A stretch of 38,578 nt of DNA from contig JAGQPW010000042.1 in the NCBI GenBank assembly GCA_020426515.1, positions 1 to 38,578 of the forward strand. The letters are read 5' to 3'. Under the pieces are notes generated by a model. It was not told where the DNA came from, made no database searches, and worked only from the letters and a program-made list of their open reading frames with translations. Below, in pieces: positions 2,927 to 8,451 of the stretch (positions within the stretch are counted from its first letter, which is position 1; every line of letters begins with the position of its first letter). The translations under genes and the position numbers were made by a program. This DNA comes from Planctomycetaceae bacterium. Lineage in GTDB: Bacteria; Planctomycetota; Planctomycetia; Planctomycetales; Planctomycetaceae.

Positions 2927-3388
2927 ATGAGTGACCTTGATTCTCCTGTGGGCCGTATCCTCGTGGCTGATGACAACGAGCCAAACCGCGAGCTGCTGGA
3001 AGCCTACCTCAGCGGGGATGGGCATGAAATTCTCATGGCTGCAGATGGTCGGGAGACCTTGGAGAAGGCTCTGTCGGAGCAACCGGACCTGATTCTGCTG
3101 GATGTGATGATGCCCCGCTTGAGCGGATTTGAGGTCTGTCAGCAGTTGAAGCAGCAGGAAGCCACGCGAAATATTCCCATTCTGATGGTAACCGCGCTGA
3201 AGGAGCCGGGGGATATTGAGAAGGCGGTGGCTGCGGGGGCTGACGACTTTCTGACCAAGCCGGTCCACCGTCTGGAACTGAAGACACGAGTTCGTTCGCT
3301 ATTGCGGGTGCGGCACCTGACGAATGAGCGAGATCGGCTGCTGGCGTATCTCGCGGAAGTCGATGCCGGCACAGACGTGCGTCCGTAG
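2927..3388 (+). CDS. single-domain response regulator (REC)
   Basis: This 153-residue protein is a receiver domain with almost nothing else. It shows the acidic pair DD early (ILVADDNEPNRELL), the phospho-acceptor Asp in LILLDVMMPRLSGFE, a Thr in MVTALKE and the conserved Lys in FLTKPVHRLELKTRVRSLL. The short tail after the last helix (RHLTNERDRLLAYLAEVD) may be a coiled coil. The pattern after the Lys resembles receivers attached to diguanylate cyclases or hybrid kinases, but no output domain is present. It could pass phosphate in a relay or act by protein contact. Its position just after the NtrC-type gene suggests, but does not prove, a link to that system. Confidence 0.9.
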   Translation: MSDLDSPVGRILVADDNEPNRELLEAYLSGDGHEILMAADGRETLEKALSEQPDLILLDVMMPRLSGFEVCQQLKQQEATRNIPILMVTALKEPGDIEKAVAAGADDFLTKPVHRLELKTRVRSLLRVRHLTNERDRLLAYLAEVDAGTDVRP

Positions 3389-3801
3389 TTCTCGTTGGCG
3401 TCTGACGGGCGGAATGCTCGTTGTGAATTCAGCAGGCAAACGACGGTCGGTTCTCCCTCTGCGCGAAGTGCTGAGGGTTCTCTCCATACACGCGTCGTCA
3501 CAGGTCGAGTTCACGGCTCTGATCATCAGCCCGGTGCCGGTGGCATCCAGGAGCCGTCATCTCTTCGAGGATGCGCGAGGTTCAACGCTTGGGGGCAGGA
3601 GTGCGCCACTGCCTCGGCGCGACTTCTGCTCAGCTGTTCTCTGAGGAGAAGCCCTGGAGCCGGAGTTCCGTTGCCGGTTGCACGTAAGAAATATCGTCCC
3701 GGCGTAGCTTCACCAACGCGTTTCCGCTGCTAAACTGATTCACATCAAGCATCTTTCATGGGTGCGTCCGTTCTCCGCTTCCCTTCTTATGTGAAATATC
3801 C
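3389..3801. other. 413-bp intergenic stretch, no gene seen
   Basis: No reading frame here has the codon pattern or domain content of a real protein; the longest open frame is low-complexity Arg/Ser/Gly sequence typical of chance GC-rich ORFs. No strong hairpin, repeat or clear promoter was seen. The promoter of the following zinc-ribbon gene presumably lies at its right end. Confidence 0.5.
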
Positions 3802-4602
3802 ATGCCTCTGAAAGCGACGTGTTCCAGCTGCGGCAAGACGTTTGGGGTTCCGGACAGATTTGCTGGCAAGCGATTCAAATGCAAGAACTGCGGCGAACCA
3901 GTGCAAGCCCCTGAGCTGGAAGCCGATGACGATTTGTTCGACGACATGGATTTCGGCGGAGGGGAAACGGTTCAGGAAGACCTACCGCCCAAGTCTCAGA
4001 AGTCTGGCAAATCGAAGAAATCGAAGAAGTCCAAAAAGGGCGGTGGCAGCCGCATTGCCGTCATTGCAGGAGCATCGGTTGCCGGGTTCTTTGCGCTCAT
4101 GGTGGCCGTTGGGGTGATCGTGAAACTTGCTCCCTTGCTTGCCAGCATGGCCACACCTCTCAGCTGGCAGGAATACACGACTCCCGATGGCGTGGTCACG
4201 CTGCAGATGCCCGGCGCCGTGAAGACAGTGAAGGTGGGGATGGCTGCACCGGGGGCTCAAAGCCTGGGAGTGGAGACGCGGCGTTTCGCTTGTGTTGTGG
4301 TCATCGAACCGATTCCGGCACAAGTACGCGACATTCCCGAGGCGGAGATGATTGATGCGCTGTCATCTGCCATTGGCATGACCCCCGGCGTTTCCAATGT
4401 GGGAGGGCTGACGGTTGCTGGCAAGCAGGGAGTGCAATTCGATCGAGTGGTCGGGGAACTGCATTCGGAGGCCCGCGCGTTCAAGAGCGGCAACAATTTC
4501 TACACCGTGACGTTTGCCTATAAAGGCAGTCCCAATACAAGTGTCCGGGACAAATTGTTCAACTCGGTCCGGGTCAACGAATCGTCCGGCGCCATGCCGT
4601 GA
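3802..4602 (+). CDS. zinc-ribbon, single-pass membrane protein of unknown function
   Basis: 266 residues. An N-terminal zinc ribbon has two CxxC knuckles at Cys7/Cys10 and Cys27/Cys30 (CSSCGKTF and CKNCGEP). An acidic stretch (about 40-60) and a very lysine-rich linker (about 62-82, SGKSKKSKKSKKGGG) follow, then one hydrophobic helix (about 85-108) and a C-terminal domain of about 155 residues of no family I recognise. The charge pattern suggests a cytosolic N-terminus and an exported C-terminus. Zinc ribbon plus linker plus membrane segment is a common planctomycete design. The C-terminal half contains PDGVVTLQMPG and an ending NSVRV that resemble the lipoprotein at 29491, which also has similar short domains; the likeness is weak. 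No function can be assigned. Confidence 0.8.
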   Translation: MPLKATCSSCGKTFGVPDRFAGKRFKCKNCGEPVQAPELEADDDLFDDMDFGGGETVQEDLPPKSQKSGKSKKSKKSKKGGGSRIAVIAGASVAGFFALMVAVGVIVKLAPLLASMATPLSWQEYTTPDGVVTLQMPGAVKTVKVGMAAPGAQSLGVETRRFACVVVIEPIPAQVRDIPEAEMIDALSSAIGMTPGVSNVGGLTVAGKQGVQFDRVVGELHSEARAFKSGNNFYTVTFAYKGSPNTSVRDKLFNSVRVNESSGAMP

Positions 4603-4725: not shown

Positions 4726-5907
4726 ATGGCGAAGCTCAGCATCGCGGATGTCGATGTCTCCGGAAAAACCGTTCTGATGCGAGTGGACTTCAACGTCCCG
4801 CTCGACAACGGGTGTATTACCGACGATCGCCGCATTGAGATGGCGCTCCCTTCCATTCGTTCGGTCCTCGACCGGGGCGGCAAGCTGATCTTGTGCAGCC
4901 ACCTGGGCCGGCCCAAGTCCAACGACGACAAGAGCTGCAGCATGCAGCCAACGGCCGCTCGGTTGGGAGAACTGCTGGGGCGCCCGGTGCAGTTCGCTTG
5001 TGACACCGTCGGTGACGATGCTGCTGCCAAGGTGCAGAGCCTGCAGGCAGGTGATGTGCTGGTTCTCGAAAACCTGCGTTTCAACGATGGCGAAAAGAAG
5101 GGGGACAGCGAGTTCGCTGGCAAGCTGGCATCCTTCGCCGACATCTACTGCAACGATGCGTTTGGAACCTGCCACCGGACCGATGCGTCGATGTACGCCC
5201 TGCCACTGGCCATGGGCGACAAGCCCAAGGTGGTCGGTTTCCTCGTCGAGAAGGAAATCAAGTACCTGAAGGAAGCGATCGACTCACCGCAACGTCCCTT
5301 TGTGGCGATCCTCGGCGGGGCCAAGGTTTCGGACAAGATCAACGTGATCAAGAACCTGCTCAACGTCTGCGACAAGATCCTCATCGGCGGAGCCATGGCC
5401 TATACATTCTCGCTCGCTCAGGGCGGACAGGTTGGCAAGAGCCTCGTCGAAAAGGACAAGCTTGATCTGGCTCGTGAGCTGCTCTCCATTGGCGGCGACA
5501 AACTGGTTCTCCCTGTTGATACCCACTGTGGCGACGACTTCAGCGGCAGCTGCAACAAGGTTGTCGTGAAGGCTGGCGAGATTCCCGATGGCTTTGAAGG
5601 TCTCGACATTGGCCCCGAAACAGCCAACCTGTTCTCCAGCATCATTGCCGATGCGAAGACTGTCGTCTGGAACGGCCCGATGGGCGTATTCGAAATGCCT
5701 CCGTTCGATGCCGGAACCCGCGCTGTGGCCAATGCCGTTGCGAACTCCGATGCCGTGAGTATCATCGGTGGAGGTGACAGTGCCGCTGCCATTCAGCAGT
5801 TCGGTCTGGCCGACAAGGTCTCGCACGTGAGCACCGGCGGCGGAGCCAGCCTGGAAATGCTCGAAGGCCGTCCCTTCCAGGCTGTTGATGTGCTGACCGA
5901 GAAATAA
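4726..5907 (+). CDS. pgk: phosphoglycerate kinase
   Basis: 393 residues, the usual length. The enzyme interconverts 1,3-bisphosphoglycerate plus ADP and 3-phosphoglycerate plus ATP in cytosolic glycolysis and gluconeogenesis. The hallmark N-terminal RVDFNVPLD segment is at about 19-27, followed by [14 protein letters not shown], the hinge region GGAKVSDKI, the nucleotide-binding region ending WNGPMGVFE, and the C-terminal GGGDSAAA and STGGGASLE motifs. The ATG at 4726 follows GAGGAAG at a normal spacing. It stands alone between a candidate promoter and a strong hairpin terminator, so it is probably a single-gene transcript. The second glycolytic enzyme here, pgi, is 30 kb away and not linked. 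Confidence 0.98.
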
Positions 5908-5944
5908 GCGGCTCGCTGGCCTCACGATCAGCTGTCGGAAATTG

Positions 5945-5984
5945 AACAGAGCCTGCATTCCTCGCGAATGCAGGCTCTGTTTGT
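5945..5984 (+). terminator. hairpin terminator after pgk
   Basis: A perfect 16-bp inverted repeat (5945-5960 with 5966-5981, AACAGAGCCTGCATTC and its complement) with a 5-base loop CTCGC is followed by TTGT. The stem flanks are A and T rich, so it could work in both directions. It lies 37 bp after the pgk stop. Confidence 0.85.
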
Positions 5985-5997
5985 ATGCAGCTGGTGA

Positions 5998-6226
5998 GGT
6001 GCCACCGGCTGCTCGTCAGCCAGTGCGAGTCCATGCCGGTCTATCGGGTGGCCCAAGTTGGTTTCCAACTTGGGGCGACGCAGTCGCATGAAGGTTGGCC
6101 GCAAACAGCACCTCCAAGGCCTGTCGGCCCCCAACGGTTGCGGGGCCACCGGGGTCACCCAGCGGAGTAACAGCCCCGGATGCCAGTGGAGCCCCATTCA
6201 CTGGCTGACAAGCAGCCAGTGGCACC
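5998..6226. repeat. 229-bp non-coding element bounded by 28-bp inverted repeats
   Basis: The 28 bases at 5998-6025 are the reverse complement of 6199-6226 with two mismatches; both arms contain the core CACTGGCTGAC and end in GTGGCACC. The right arm is itself a 9-bp hairpin (CACTGGCTG, loop ACAAG, CAGCCAGTG). No gene lies between. It could be a MITE-like or REP-like dispersed element, or the degraded end of the cassette array. Its right arm overlaps the last bases of attC site 2, and GGGTGCCACTGG of that arm recurs inside attC site 2 (- strand, 6267-6256). Confidence 0.7.
6052..6074. repeat. 10-bp perfect hairpin inside the element
   Basis: CCCAAGTTGG (6052-6061), loop TTT, CCAACTTGGG (6065-6074). 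There is no T run after it on either strand, so it is probably a structural part of the repeat element rather than a terminator. Confidence 0.7.
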
Positions 6227-6282
6227 CAACAGAGCCCACACTCGATGCCACAGTTCCAGTGGCACCCGGCGCATGGTTAGGC
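6224..6282 (-). other. attC recombination site 2 (59 bp)
   Basis: Read on the - strand, it begins GCCTAAC (6282-6276) and ends GTTGGGT (6230-6224), both exact matches to the RYYYAAC and GTTRRRY cores; the two cores pair at 7 of 7 positions (two G-T). Three-base spacers follow on both sides, then a short stem GC-CC/GGGC with one extra G bulged from the left arm, as expected for the extrahelical base in attC, then an inner stem TGCCAC/GTGGCA with a 7-base loop. Its right end merges into the inverted-repeat element. It begins 14 bases after the stop of the cassette 2 ORF. Confidence 0.75.
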
Positions 6283-6296
6283 AGCGTCATCATGGG

Positions 6297-6623
6297 TCAA
6301 AGTAAATCATGCTCTGCTAGAGCGTCACTCCAAATCACGTCCTTGCTCTCCTGGAAGTATCTCCGCAACACCTCCTGGACCTGAACGCTCTCAACCTCGC
6401 CGCGAGCAATCGCATCCAAGAGTAATCGTGAATCCCCTGAACTCATCTTCCTGGCGGACTCCACGTGACAGCAGCCATAGCCATCGAATGAAATCCTGCG
6501 AATGGAAACTGTGCCGGTATCATCCGTGTCGAAGTCCGCGAATACACTCCCTCCCTGCAAAGACAGACAAAAGCTGCATGGGCGGGTCGGCATCACCGGA
6601 AATGTCTCAACTGCGATGCTCAT
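6297..6623 (-). CDS. integron cassette 2 protein, unknown function
   Basis: 108 residues, starting at an ATG 15 bases after the GTTAGGC cassette boundary and ending 14 bases before attC 2, so the ORF fills its cassette. No family is recognised. The protein is soluble, with several cysteines (PCSFCLSL near 15-22 and YGCCHVE near 50) and an acidic segment (VFADFDTDDTG). The C-terminal half (SGDSRLLLDAIARGEVESVQVQEVLRRYF) looks helical. No signal peptide or membrane helix is seen. There is no clear Shine-Dalgarno sequence, as is frequent in cassettes. It presumably depends on the promoter beside intI for expression. The reading frame could be wrong, but the fit to the cassette boundaries argues for it. 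Confidence 0.7.
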   Translation of the reverse strand: MSIAVETFPVMPTRPCSFCLSLQGGSVFADFDTDDTGTVSIRRISFDGYGCCHVESARKMSSGDSRLLLDAIARGEVESVQVQEVLRRYFQESKDVIWSDALAEHDLL

Positions 6624-6637
6624 GGTGTGGTCGAGCG

Positions 6638-6727
6638 GCCTAACGCCTGCCGTAACCGGGCACGAACGGAAGACTTTAATTTCAGTTGCCGCGTGATTGA
6701 GTGATCCGGTTCACGGCTTTGTTATGG
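6638..6727 (-). other. attC recombination site 1 (90 bp)
   Basis: On the - strand it runs from CCATAAC (6727-6721) to GTTAGGC (6644-6638). The inner arms are GCCGTGAACCGG (6717-6706) and CCGGTTACGGC (6659-6649). They pair perfectly over 11 bp except for one unpaired G in the left arm, the extrahelical base typical of attC. About 46 bases form the variable terminal structure. The stop codon TAA of the cassette 1 gene lies inside the left core. Confidence 0.88.
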
Positions 6728-7303
6728 CTTGCTCAGTTTGATTTCGCCGAACGTCATGAAGACCAACGCCGTACCGGCTGGCCCACGGTAAGCACCGTTC
6801 GCCTCCCCTAATCGGGCCGCGACGGCGGTAAACTCCCAAGCTTCATCCTCTGTGCACTCTACCATTCTTTCGGTGTATCGGGACAAGCCGTTGTCCAATC
6901 CGAATTGTCTGGCTAAGGCAGCGTGCTTGCTGAGTGGCTCAGCAACTGACGGGTGATCCCAGCCCCAGAGGAAGGTTCCGTTCTCAGTGTTGTAGGTGCC
7001 CACGATTTGCATATCGGCCTCGGCGATGGCCCCATCGGCAAACGTGAAATTGATACGGCCAGTATCCTGATCGGCGGCCCAATTTTCCTCGTCACCGAGA
7101 TGCCATGTCGAACTATGTGCCGCGGTTTGAGTGCGAAGCCCTTCAAGTGATTGTTGGATGTAAATCTTAGGGTCCATTTTTGCCTCGGTAGATGCTGAAT
7201 CGGACAGGTCGGGCGAAGTGCCAGACGGTTGTAGATCGCACCCAAGCAGCATCACTGCCGTGGCAAGAAGTGGCAGGCGAGCGGCGATCATAGATTGAGC
7301 CAT
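6722..7303 (-). CDS. integron cassette 1: predicted lipoprotein, DUF6882-like
   Basis: 193 residues from the ATG at 7303, which sits inside the GTTATGG cassette boundary. This start gives a clean lipoprotein signal peptide, MAQSMIAARLPLL...MLLGC, with a lipobox LLGC and lipidation at Cys22. A longer in-frame start at 7351 would read through the attI region and bury the signal. The mature part has TWHLGDEENWAADQDTGRINF, a QIVGTYNTENGTFLWGWDHP segment and a C-terminal AVAARLGEANGAYRGPAG segment. This resembles, from memory, the DUF6882 family of unknown function. The TAA stop lies within attC 1. No Shine-Dalgarno sequence is seen; transcription would come from the promoter at 7372-7400, giving a leader of about 60 bases. 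Confidence 0.8.
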   Translation of the reverse strand: MAQSMIAARLPLLATAVMLLGCDLQPSGTSPDLSDSASTEAKMDPKIYIQQSLEGLRTQTAAHSSTWHLGDEENWAADQDTGRINFTFADGAIAEADMQIVGTYNTENGTFLWGWDHPSVAEPLSKHAALARQFGLDNGLSRYTERMVECTEDEAWEFTAVAARLGEANGAYRGPAGTALVFMTFGEIKLSKP

Positions 7304-7361
7304 AACTAATTGATAGACAGAAGTCGGCTTCTGTGTATTGGGAGTTGACATTCTGTGTAAC
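7300..7361 (-). other. attI-like insertion site beside intI
   Basis: The region between intI and cassette 1 ends at the GTTATGG core (7306-7300). It holds two exact copies of TACACAGAA on the - strand (7359-7351 and 7337-7329), 22 bases apart, and an AGAAG/CTTCT inverted pair next to the second. attI sites of known integrons carry integrase-binding direct repeats upstream of the core, so these are candidates. A second weaker core, GTTACAC, lies at 7361-7355. The left limit of function is unknown. Confidence 0.6.
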
Positions 7362-7371
7362 GCGACGGATC

Positions 7372-7400
7372 ATCGTACGCTGATGGATTGGGGTTGTCAA
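7372..7400 (-). promoter_or_regulatory. candidate cassette promoter Pc
   Basis: On the - strand, TTGACA (7400-7395, six of six) is 17 bases from TACGAT (7377-7372, four of six). Transcription would start near 7365 and run into cassette 1, about 62 bases before its ATG. The position between intI and attI and the direction match the Pc promoter of known integrons. Confidence 0.65.
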
Positions 7401-7446
7401 TCAGGGAGGGTGTGTTTCGGTCATCTTGCAGACTGCGGGGCCGCTC

Positions 7447-8451
7447 ATGAAACCGGTTGTCGTCAACTCTCCTAAACTACTGGACAAGTTACGTTTACGA
7501 CTGCGTGCCAGCCATTATTCGTATCGCACCGAGCAGGCCTATGTGCGGTGGGTGGAGAAGTTCCTGCGGTATCATCGGGGGCGGAACGGCGGGGTGTGGC
7601 GGCATCCGGCGGAGATGGGAAAGGCAGAAGTCGAGGAATATCTGACGTTCCTGGCTGTGCAGCAAAACGTGGCGCCCTCCACGCAGAATCAGGCATTCTC
7701 GGCGCTTCTGTATTTCTGGGGCCACGTTCTGGAACGCAAACTCCCGGAGATTCAGGCCAATCGGGCACAACCCAAGCAGCGTCTCCCGGTGGTGCTGTCG
7801 CAGGAGGAAGTTGCGAAACTGCTGCCGGAGGTCCGCCCCGGGCCGTACGGGTTGATGTGCAAACTGATGTACGGGACCGGCATGCGGCTGATGGAGTGTT
7901 GCCGCCTGAGAGTCAAGGACATTGATTTCGGTCGCCGGCAAATCGTGATTCGGCAGGGGAAGGGGGGAAAGGATCGCGCGGTGCCGCTCCCGCAGTTGGC
8001 TGCAGACGAGTTGCAGCAACGCGTGGAGGTTGCCCGCAGGCAGTTGGAGCGGGATGTGGACGAAGGTTTCGCCGGGGTGCCGTTGCCGAAGGCATTTCAG
8101 CGGAAGAACAGTGTGGCCAGTGTGAGTCTGGCATGGCAATGGGTGTTTGGTTCGGATCAACTCAGCCGCGATCCCCAAAATCCTGAGAGCCCGCTGGTGC
8201 GTTATCATCTGCATGAGAACAACGTGCAGAAGGCATTGTTGAATGCCGTTCGCCGCTGCAAGTTCCAGAAGCGAGTGACCTGCCACACACTGCGCCACAG
8301 CTTTGCGACACATTTGCTTGAGAACGGCTATGACATTCGCACCGTGCAGGAGTTGCTGGGACACAGGGATGTCTCGACGACGATGATCTACACGCATGTG
8401 CTGAAGGTGGAGGCCGGCGCAGTACGGAGTCCGCTGGACGTGGTGGGATGA
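7447..8451 (+). CDS. intI: integron integrase IntI (tyrosine recombinase)
   Basis: 334 residues, full length for IntI. An N-terminal SAM-like DNA-binding domain covers about 9-95 (LLDKLRLRLRASHYSYRTEQAYVRWVEKF), and the catalytic domain follows. The tyrosine-recombinase residues are all present: Arg147 (GTGMRLMECCRLR), Lys172/175, His280 and Arg283 (HTLRHSFATHLL), His306 (LLGHRDVSTTMIYTH) and nucleophile Tyr315. Between about 218 and 255 it has the extra segment that separates integron integrases from XerC/D (SLAWQWVFGSDQLSRDP...). The ATG at 7447 is preferred to a TTG seven codons earlier. No frame damage is seen, so it may be active. It is divergent from the cassettes it would insert and excise. 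Confidence 0.95.
   Translation: MKPVVVNSPKLLDKLRLRLRASHYSYRTEQAYVRWVEKFLRYHRGRNGGVWRHPAEMGKAEVEEYLTFLAVQQNVAPSTQNQAFSALLYFWGHVLERKLPEIQANRAQPKQRLPVVLSQEEVAKLLPEVRPGPYGLMCKLMYGTGMRLMECCRLRVKDIDFGRRQIVIRQGKGGKDRAVPLPQLAADELQQRVEVARRQLERDVDEGFAGVPLPKAFQRKNSVASVSLAWQWVFGSDQLSRDPQNPESPLVRYHLHENNVQKALLNAVRRCKFQKRVTCHTLRHSFATHLLENGYDIRTVQELLGHRDVSTTMIYTHVLKVEAGAVRSPLDVVG

Follow-up and report, generated by a model that had tools for sequence, protein, structure and literature searches.

The last attC site of a small planctomycete integron appears to be half built from a mobile palindrome. Our preferred reading, to which we assign a probability of roughly 0.78 from sequence comparison, is that the DNA behind the cassette array is a mosaic of palindromes linked to RAYT transposases, and that one unit of it, carrying the palindrome we refer to as REP-B, landed in the last attC site (attC2), whose native second half would now be gone. 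The window, the whole stretch of DNA analysed here (38,578 nucleotides), is contig C366 of the host draft genome, whose 530 contigs add up to 5,807,500 bases.

A two-cassette chromosomal integron

The integron integrase gene, intI, lies at 7426–8451 on the plus strand (NCBIfam TIGR02249, 405.5 bits against a cut-off of 265; also Pfam Phage_integrase) and is followed by two cassettes on the minus strand. Cassette 1 opens at the attI/cassette 1 junction core GTTATGGC (7299–7306, minus strand), which is the exact complement of GCCATAAC (6721–6728, minus strand), the first box of attC1 (GCCATAAC ... GTTAGGC, 6638–6728, minus strand). These bounds of attC1 come from core complementarity; our simple attC finder returned 6638–6742, because GCCATAAC does not match RYYYAAC. 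The open frame of cassette 1 (6722–7351, minus strand) encodes a DUF6882 protein (Pfam PF21813, 3.1e-33) and begins upstream of the core GTTATGGC, the likelier start, as judged from the sequence, being the ATG at 7303–7301 within that core. The protein read from this ATG (6722–7303) has an LLGC motif and an N-terminus which we take to resemble a lipoprotein signal peptide. Cassette 2 carries a 108-aa open-reading frame (6297–6623, minus strand), whose protein drew no family match from Pfam or NCBIfam (E ≤ 0.001) and has homologues in few genomes of the class (5 of 397, its own genome counted). One homologue, in locus L262 (genome G121, contig C5), directly adjoins an integrase 57% identical to the window IntI and has the cores GTTAGCT and AGCTAAC, hence the cassette 2 gene family travels in integrons.

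The first attC box of a cassette complements its own 5′ core. The core pair of cassette 1 obeys this rule, as do those of cassette 2 (GTTAGGC at 6638–6644 and GCCTAAC at 6276–6282, both minus strand, exact complements) and of the L262 homologue; we therefore read both as cassettes and the first attC2 box as real. With an IntI-type integrase and cassettes bounded by matching cores, the locus is a two-cassette chromosomal integron. It shares these features with other chromosomal integrons, but differs in that its last attC looks chimeric with a REP. The stretch 5998–6226 was also tried as an integron cassette and set aside, lacking an attC of its own with a first box complementary to its 5′ core.

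A promoter-like TTGACA-17-TACGAT (7372–7400, minus strand; 10 of 12 consensus positions, a resemblance that is not evidence of function) points into the array and is a candidate cassette promoter. On the far side the region is bounded by a phosphoglycerate kinase gene, pgk (4726–5907, plus strand; NCBIfam NF010569, 547 bits, below the cut-off of 883, the match covering half of that bifunctional model), which is followed by a hairpin at 5945–5981 (inverted repeat 5945–5960/5966–5981). Nothing in the window reached the gathering score of an Rfam family.

Palindromes behind the array

Between pgk and the array, the first-pass annotation had described a 229-bp element with inverted ends (5998–6226), and its anatomy proved accurate in several respects. 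The 28-bp terminal inverted repeats with two mismatches are there, as arms at 5998–6025 and 6199–6226 that are 26/28 identical after reversal (93% complementary, 173 nt between them), and each 28-nt arm is a hairpin by itself, with a 9-bp stem. We refer to the arms as REP-B, the first on the minus strand (6199–6226; recognised by the inverted-repeat call, copies elsewhere and its hairpin fold) and the second inverted, on the plus strand (5998–6025; inverted-repeat call and copies elsewhere). The internal 10-bp hairpin, CCCAAGTTGG-TTT-CCAACTTGGG at 6052–6074 (plus strand), is also present and is one end of a larger structure, REPIN-A (6046–6160, plus strand; GGGTGGCCC...GGTCACCC), an inverted doublet of REP-A type palindromes lying between the arms; the REP-A palindrome at its other end (6110–6158, minus strand) departs at 4 positions from a 49-nt consensus that was assembled by eye. 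The element had been said to begin exactly where attC2 ends, which is right to 3 nt, the GTTGGGT box of attC2 (6224–6230) overlapping the end of the arm. The sequence said to be common to arm and attC2 is indeed found in both, GGGTGCCACTGG occurring on the minus strand at 6216–6227 in the arm and at 6256–6267 in the attC2 region.

Composition of the last attC site

On the minus strand of 5900–6290, the only RYYYAAC is the first (R″) box of attC2, GCCTAAC at 6276–6282, which complements the 5′ core of cassette 2 and is read as native, and the only GTTRRRY is GTTGGGT at 6224–6230, which resembles an attC R′ box and is the head of REP-B. As no other GTTRRRY occurs there, the native second half of attC2 appears to be missing. 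The rest of the called site belongs to a repeat unit (6182–6273, minus strand) which comprises a degenerate hairpin (6244–6267) and one REP-B arm (6199–6226), and this unit, to about 6273, that is, the called attC2 except GCCTAACCA, is copied at two other places in the host. The copy at C158:3584–3673 is 94% identical, extends to 6271 of the query and has the same GTTGGGT head; that at C13:7092–7171 is 78% identical over 6193–6273 of the query. The first is located after an open-reading frame which we read as HEAT-repeat-like, the second between one which we read as PDZ-protease-like and another open-reading frame, and no integrase match near either copy was better than E 0.41. Our simple finder made no attC-like call in the C13 stretch and a weak one inside the C158 open-reading frame (L188 1119–1243, −13.5 kcal/mol). 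In another genome (G012), three ends of related repeats read GTTG ahead of the hairpin. Close to the REP-B unit of C158 there is a further inverted repeat, TAGGGCAGGCTC...GAGCCTGCCCTA (L188 about 3680–3810).

Since the unit is copied outside integrons and its GTTGGGT is the REP-B head, the reading we favour for attC2 is a native first box, GCCTAAC, with a landed repeat behind it, the remainder of the site, GTTGGGT included, belonging to the repeat unit. The direction, from repeat to attC, would follow from the distribution of three copies of the unit. It is unlikely that attC2 is instead a complete native attC, from which the C158 and C13 copies were carried off together with REP-B, even though the site looks good by several measures. 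The simple finder called it at 6224–6282 (minus strand), where 7 of 7 box positions pair if G-T is counted and the inner duplex has −16.8 kcal/mol; other loci, 897,353 bases in total, reached this stringency at two places. Its DNA fold has the layout of an attC, with a box stem, a 3/3 spacer and a bulged inner stem, and amounts to −8.1 kcal/mol for its 59 nt, whereas the 91 nt of attC1 give −14.2; per nucleotide the two are close (−0.137 vs. −0.156 kcal/mol). Against this, only one of the three copies of the segment is in an integron, and the R′ box is the head of a repeat which, at other places, usually begins similarly: among 59 exact REP-B copies in named genomes, 49 have the head GGGT (GTTGGGT in two), whilst the tails vary, the commonest being CCAA, TAAA and AGAA. 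The case is a warning to users of attC callers, which can pass a site even when a mobile palindrome makes up half of it.

The first-pass annotation had also proposed looking for copies flanked by RYYYAAC and GTTRRRY cores. This search gave little: of the 59 exact 27-mer copies, two had a GTTRRRY head, three had an RYYYAAC within 125 nt upstream (6 to 7 expected by chance) and one had both.

Dispersal of the palindromes in the host and its relatives

The dispersal of these palindromes is directly observed. Searching the host with 5990–6300 returned 37 matches at E ≤ 10, self-matches included, the best at another place having an E-value of 6.5e-34. Outside the window the arm was found on C158, C13, C99 (twice), C55 and C8 at E ≤ 0.0016, and REP-B is low in the host overall, with 3 strict matches and 8 arm-like places at E ≤ 0.0016. 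The interior, REPIN-A, is nearly whole on C74 and C122, with partial copies on seven further host contigs (C527, C421, C167, C19, C477, C524 and C119). As arm and interior each have separate host copies, the inverted-repeat observation is more than chance; a count of the arm had been called for, and rather than single copy it is dispersed in both the host and its relatives. The 311-bp query at E ≤ 0.001 matched 9 of 59 genomes, the host counted, and outside the host only parts of it were matched; REPIN-A is nearly whole at two places in the same-genus genome G001.

A REP-B type pattern, GTGCCACTGGCN{2,30}GCCAGTG, had 1026 matches in 35 of the 59 genomes, against 7 matches in 5 genomes for its reversed control. 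Strand counts were nearly equal in rich genomes (137/137, 113/112 and 59/58), as expected for inverted doublets. The exact REP-B 27-mer was found in 58 stretches of named genomes, half of them (29) on the single chromosome of Planctomycetes bacterium Pan216; 28 of the other 29 are labelled planctomycetes. The palindromes are thus REPs in the broad sense, short palindromes dispersed over many genome places, and REPIN-A is an inverted doublet that recurs as one unit (C74, C122 and twice in G001). In many of 20 Pan216 stretches (G039, L148–L167) REP-B is embedded in a larger repeat, some 130 bp in length and with termini like CTAGTGC...GCACTAG; this carrier is unlike that in the window.

Linkage to RAYT transposases

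Both families are physically linked to RAYT genes, inverted pairs around such a gene being found for REP-A in the host and in genome G024, and for the REP-B type in relatives only. On host contig C421 a RAYT gene (NF047646, 100.4 bits, containing one TAG) is flanked on both sides by an inverted pair of REP-A copies (4 and 3 mismatches to the 49-nt consensus). On G024 contig C59 an open RAYT frame lies between inverted REP-A copies, as read by eye from the sequence, the ungapped scan having missed these copies; the downstream copy is also a BLAST match. Plus-then-minus REP-B-type pairs 500–900 bp apart, picked by eye among the matches listed, enclose a RAYT in five of five cases (two in G004, one each in G017, G025 and G040), and four of these RAYTs are open and above the NCBIfam cut-off, the fifth being stop-interrupted. 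In one Pirellulales MAG (L217 and L222), the exact REP-B 27-mer and an inverted partner bracket RAYT remnants. L222 has two REP-B pairs of about 320 bp (3259–3576 and 6309–6628), the first of which encloses RAYT remains and looks like a MITE formed by deletion.

The association holds across genomes in one direction. An NF047646 match is present in each of the 13 genomes in which the REP-B pattern occurs at least 10 times, and the 11 genomes lacking one have 0–5 pattern matches; the converse fails, genome G013 having 15 RAYT matches and one palindrome, and G005 six and none. Two further results also weigh against our reading. The scanned stretches around the six host RAYT matches contained no REP-B when up to 8 mismatches were allowed, and in Pan216, a genome rich in REP-B, five of the seven Y1_Tnp loci were scanned and none of the five had REP-B within about 1.5 kb at up to 6 mismatches. 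The analysis nevertheless documents, in planctomycetes, a clan of RAYT-linked palindromes with a GGGTG head.

Dispersal and RAYT linkage together explain the repeats without any role in transcription or at mRNA ends. We regard it as quite improbable that the palindromes are kept mainly as such structures, although they fold strongly and lie between two convergent transcription units, pgk and the cassette array: no terminator-like site was called within 5998–6282, the sole call within 5800–7500 being at 7323–7349.

A mosaic of two repeat families

Arm and interior recur separately, and among the 37 host matches at E ≤ 10 none besides the window itself spans both arms, nor did the host search show the two arms and their spacer together at a second place. 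The stretch is, therefore, not one 229-bp element but a mosaic of two palindromic families, both dispersed, with REP-B in the arms and REPIN-A in the interior; of the original description, the inverted arms and the hairpin stand, whilst their unity does not. The suggestion of a MITE landed at the array end fares similarly, in that a MITE-like mobile repeat is there, but not as a single 229-bp piece. A MITE with 28-bp terminal inverted repeats, moved whole and with REPIN-A as its normal interior, would suit arms that are inverted and outermost and a stretch that folds whole as a single strand (−66.1 kcal/mol, a value without a shuffled control); it is made very improbable by the occurrence of REPIN-A and REP-B apart on host contigs and by the inner flanks of the arms, which differ (AATGGGG vs. 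CGAGTCC) and have their like at different other copies. That the stretch is a non-coding third cassette, as had also been proposed, is scarcely credible, for although it starts at a GTTRRRY-like box at the array end, the minus strand of 5900–6290 has neither a second GTTRRRY nor a second RYYYAAC, there is no attC-like call in 5500–6223, and the other copies of the unit are outside integrons.

Proposed insertion into attC2

The mosaic resembles bacterial interspersed mosaic elements, with two inverted REP-B hairpins and a REPIN-A doublet between them. The palindromes would be the substrates of RAYT-family single-strand (HUH, Y1) transposases recognising the folded hairpin, a chemistry presumed from the family. 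From the arrangement we infer a transposition step and an order of events in which the REP-B unit would have landed in the last attC, immediately after the GCCTAAC box, which is native, and the site would have lost its own second half. The remnant would still pass for an attC since the REP head, by chance, reads GTTGGGT. This would account for the puzzling end of the array.

Two negative results count against such a step. The first-pass annotation had proposed a search for target-site duplications; none was found at five candidate end pairs, the longest words common to the flanks being 2–5 nt, although to our knowledge none are expected for this transposase class. The same-genus genome G001 showed no empty site within the stretch compared, the last 9.3 kb of a contig: the pgk end is present (95% identical over 79 aa), but the integrase, the cassettes and the rest of the seven further window proteins compared were unmatched, so an insertion boundary is not readable there.

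A mobile palindrome entering an attC is, on our best reading, preferable to attC sites arising from the palindrome. As a general statement, the earlier idea that attC-like sites arose from the repeat finds no echo at other integrons, the arm motif GTGCCACTGG having no occurrence in the 255,841 bases of 17 further integrase loci of the class. With 0.63 matches expected, a figure computed for a pattern stricter than GTGCCACTGG, this excludes only a strong link between the arm motif and integrase loci. Nor was there any sign that REPs target integrons, in a sample of 17 loci that could not reveal a weak preference. These loci, from 13 genomes, were drawn from 21 other integrase matches (E ≤ 1e-40); the 16 integrases compared with TIGR02249 all pass it (313–446 bits), and the 17th (L168) has an internal stop.

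Relationship to known systems

Mobile elements placed in attC sites are known from the IS1111-attC insertion sequences. The present case is alike in that a mobile element sits in an attC site, but differs in showing no sign of attC preference and in belonging to another transposase class. The element is known in kind and the event ordinary, whilst the position in an attC is unusual.

REPs, BIMEs and REPINs with their RAYTs (PMC3733652, PMC8266576) are likewise short dispersed hairpins, often inverted doublets, that flank RAYT genes; they differ by a GTAG tag, where the head here is GGGTG. GTAG and CGTC repeats have been reported from Planctomycetes (PMC3733652), but these repeats have neither tetranucleotide at an end, which places them outside those super-families and counts against our reading. 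The same source describes, for TIRtrons with TIRYT transposases, RAYT-like genes between inverted repeats unrelated to the GTAG REPs, some of these inverted repeats being repeated families. In contrast to those of TIRtrons, the inverted repeats here are hairpins and have over 200 matches in each of two genomes. Overall, the repeats resemble RAYT-linked REPs/REPINs or TIRtron repeats, and do not belong to the GTAG or CGTC super-families.

Possible activity of the chimeric site

As attC2 still folds and scores like an attC, activity of the chimeric site is conceivable. We consider it a long shot that the site works, with IntI using the REP hairpin as inner stem and GTTGGGT as recombination box, and at the same slender odds half of an attC would have been co-opted from a transposon palindrome. 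PMC8266576 notes that folded single strands are acted on by REP transposases as well as by IntI; with single-strand hairpins as the substrate of both systems, a REP whose head reads GTTRRRY could become the seed of a new attC site. A chimeric site that proved active would supply a concrete path, open to testing, by which attC sites might originate. Among the titles and abstract openings of the literature searched, we found no treatment of REPs in attC sites or of the REP-B palindrome. Beside an integrase at L175 1–8000 (genome G032, contig C28), there is a large cassette array with many regularly spaced attC-like sites, the simple finder having made 96 overlapping attC calls in this 19.5-kb locus.
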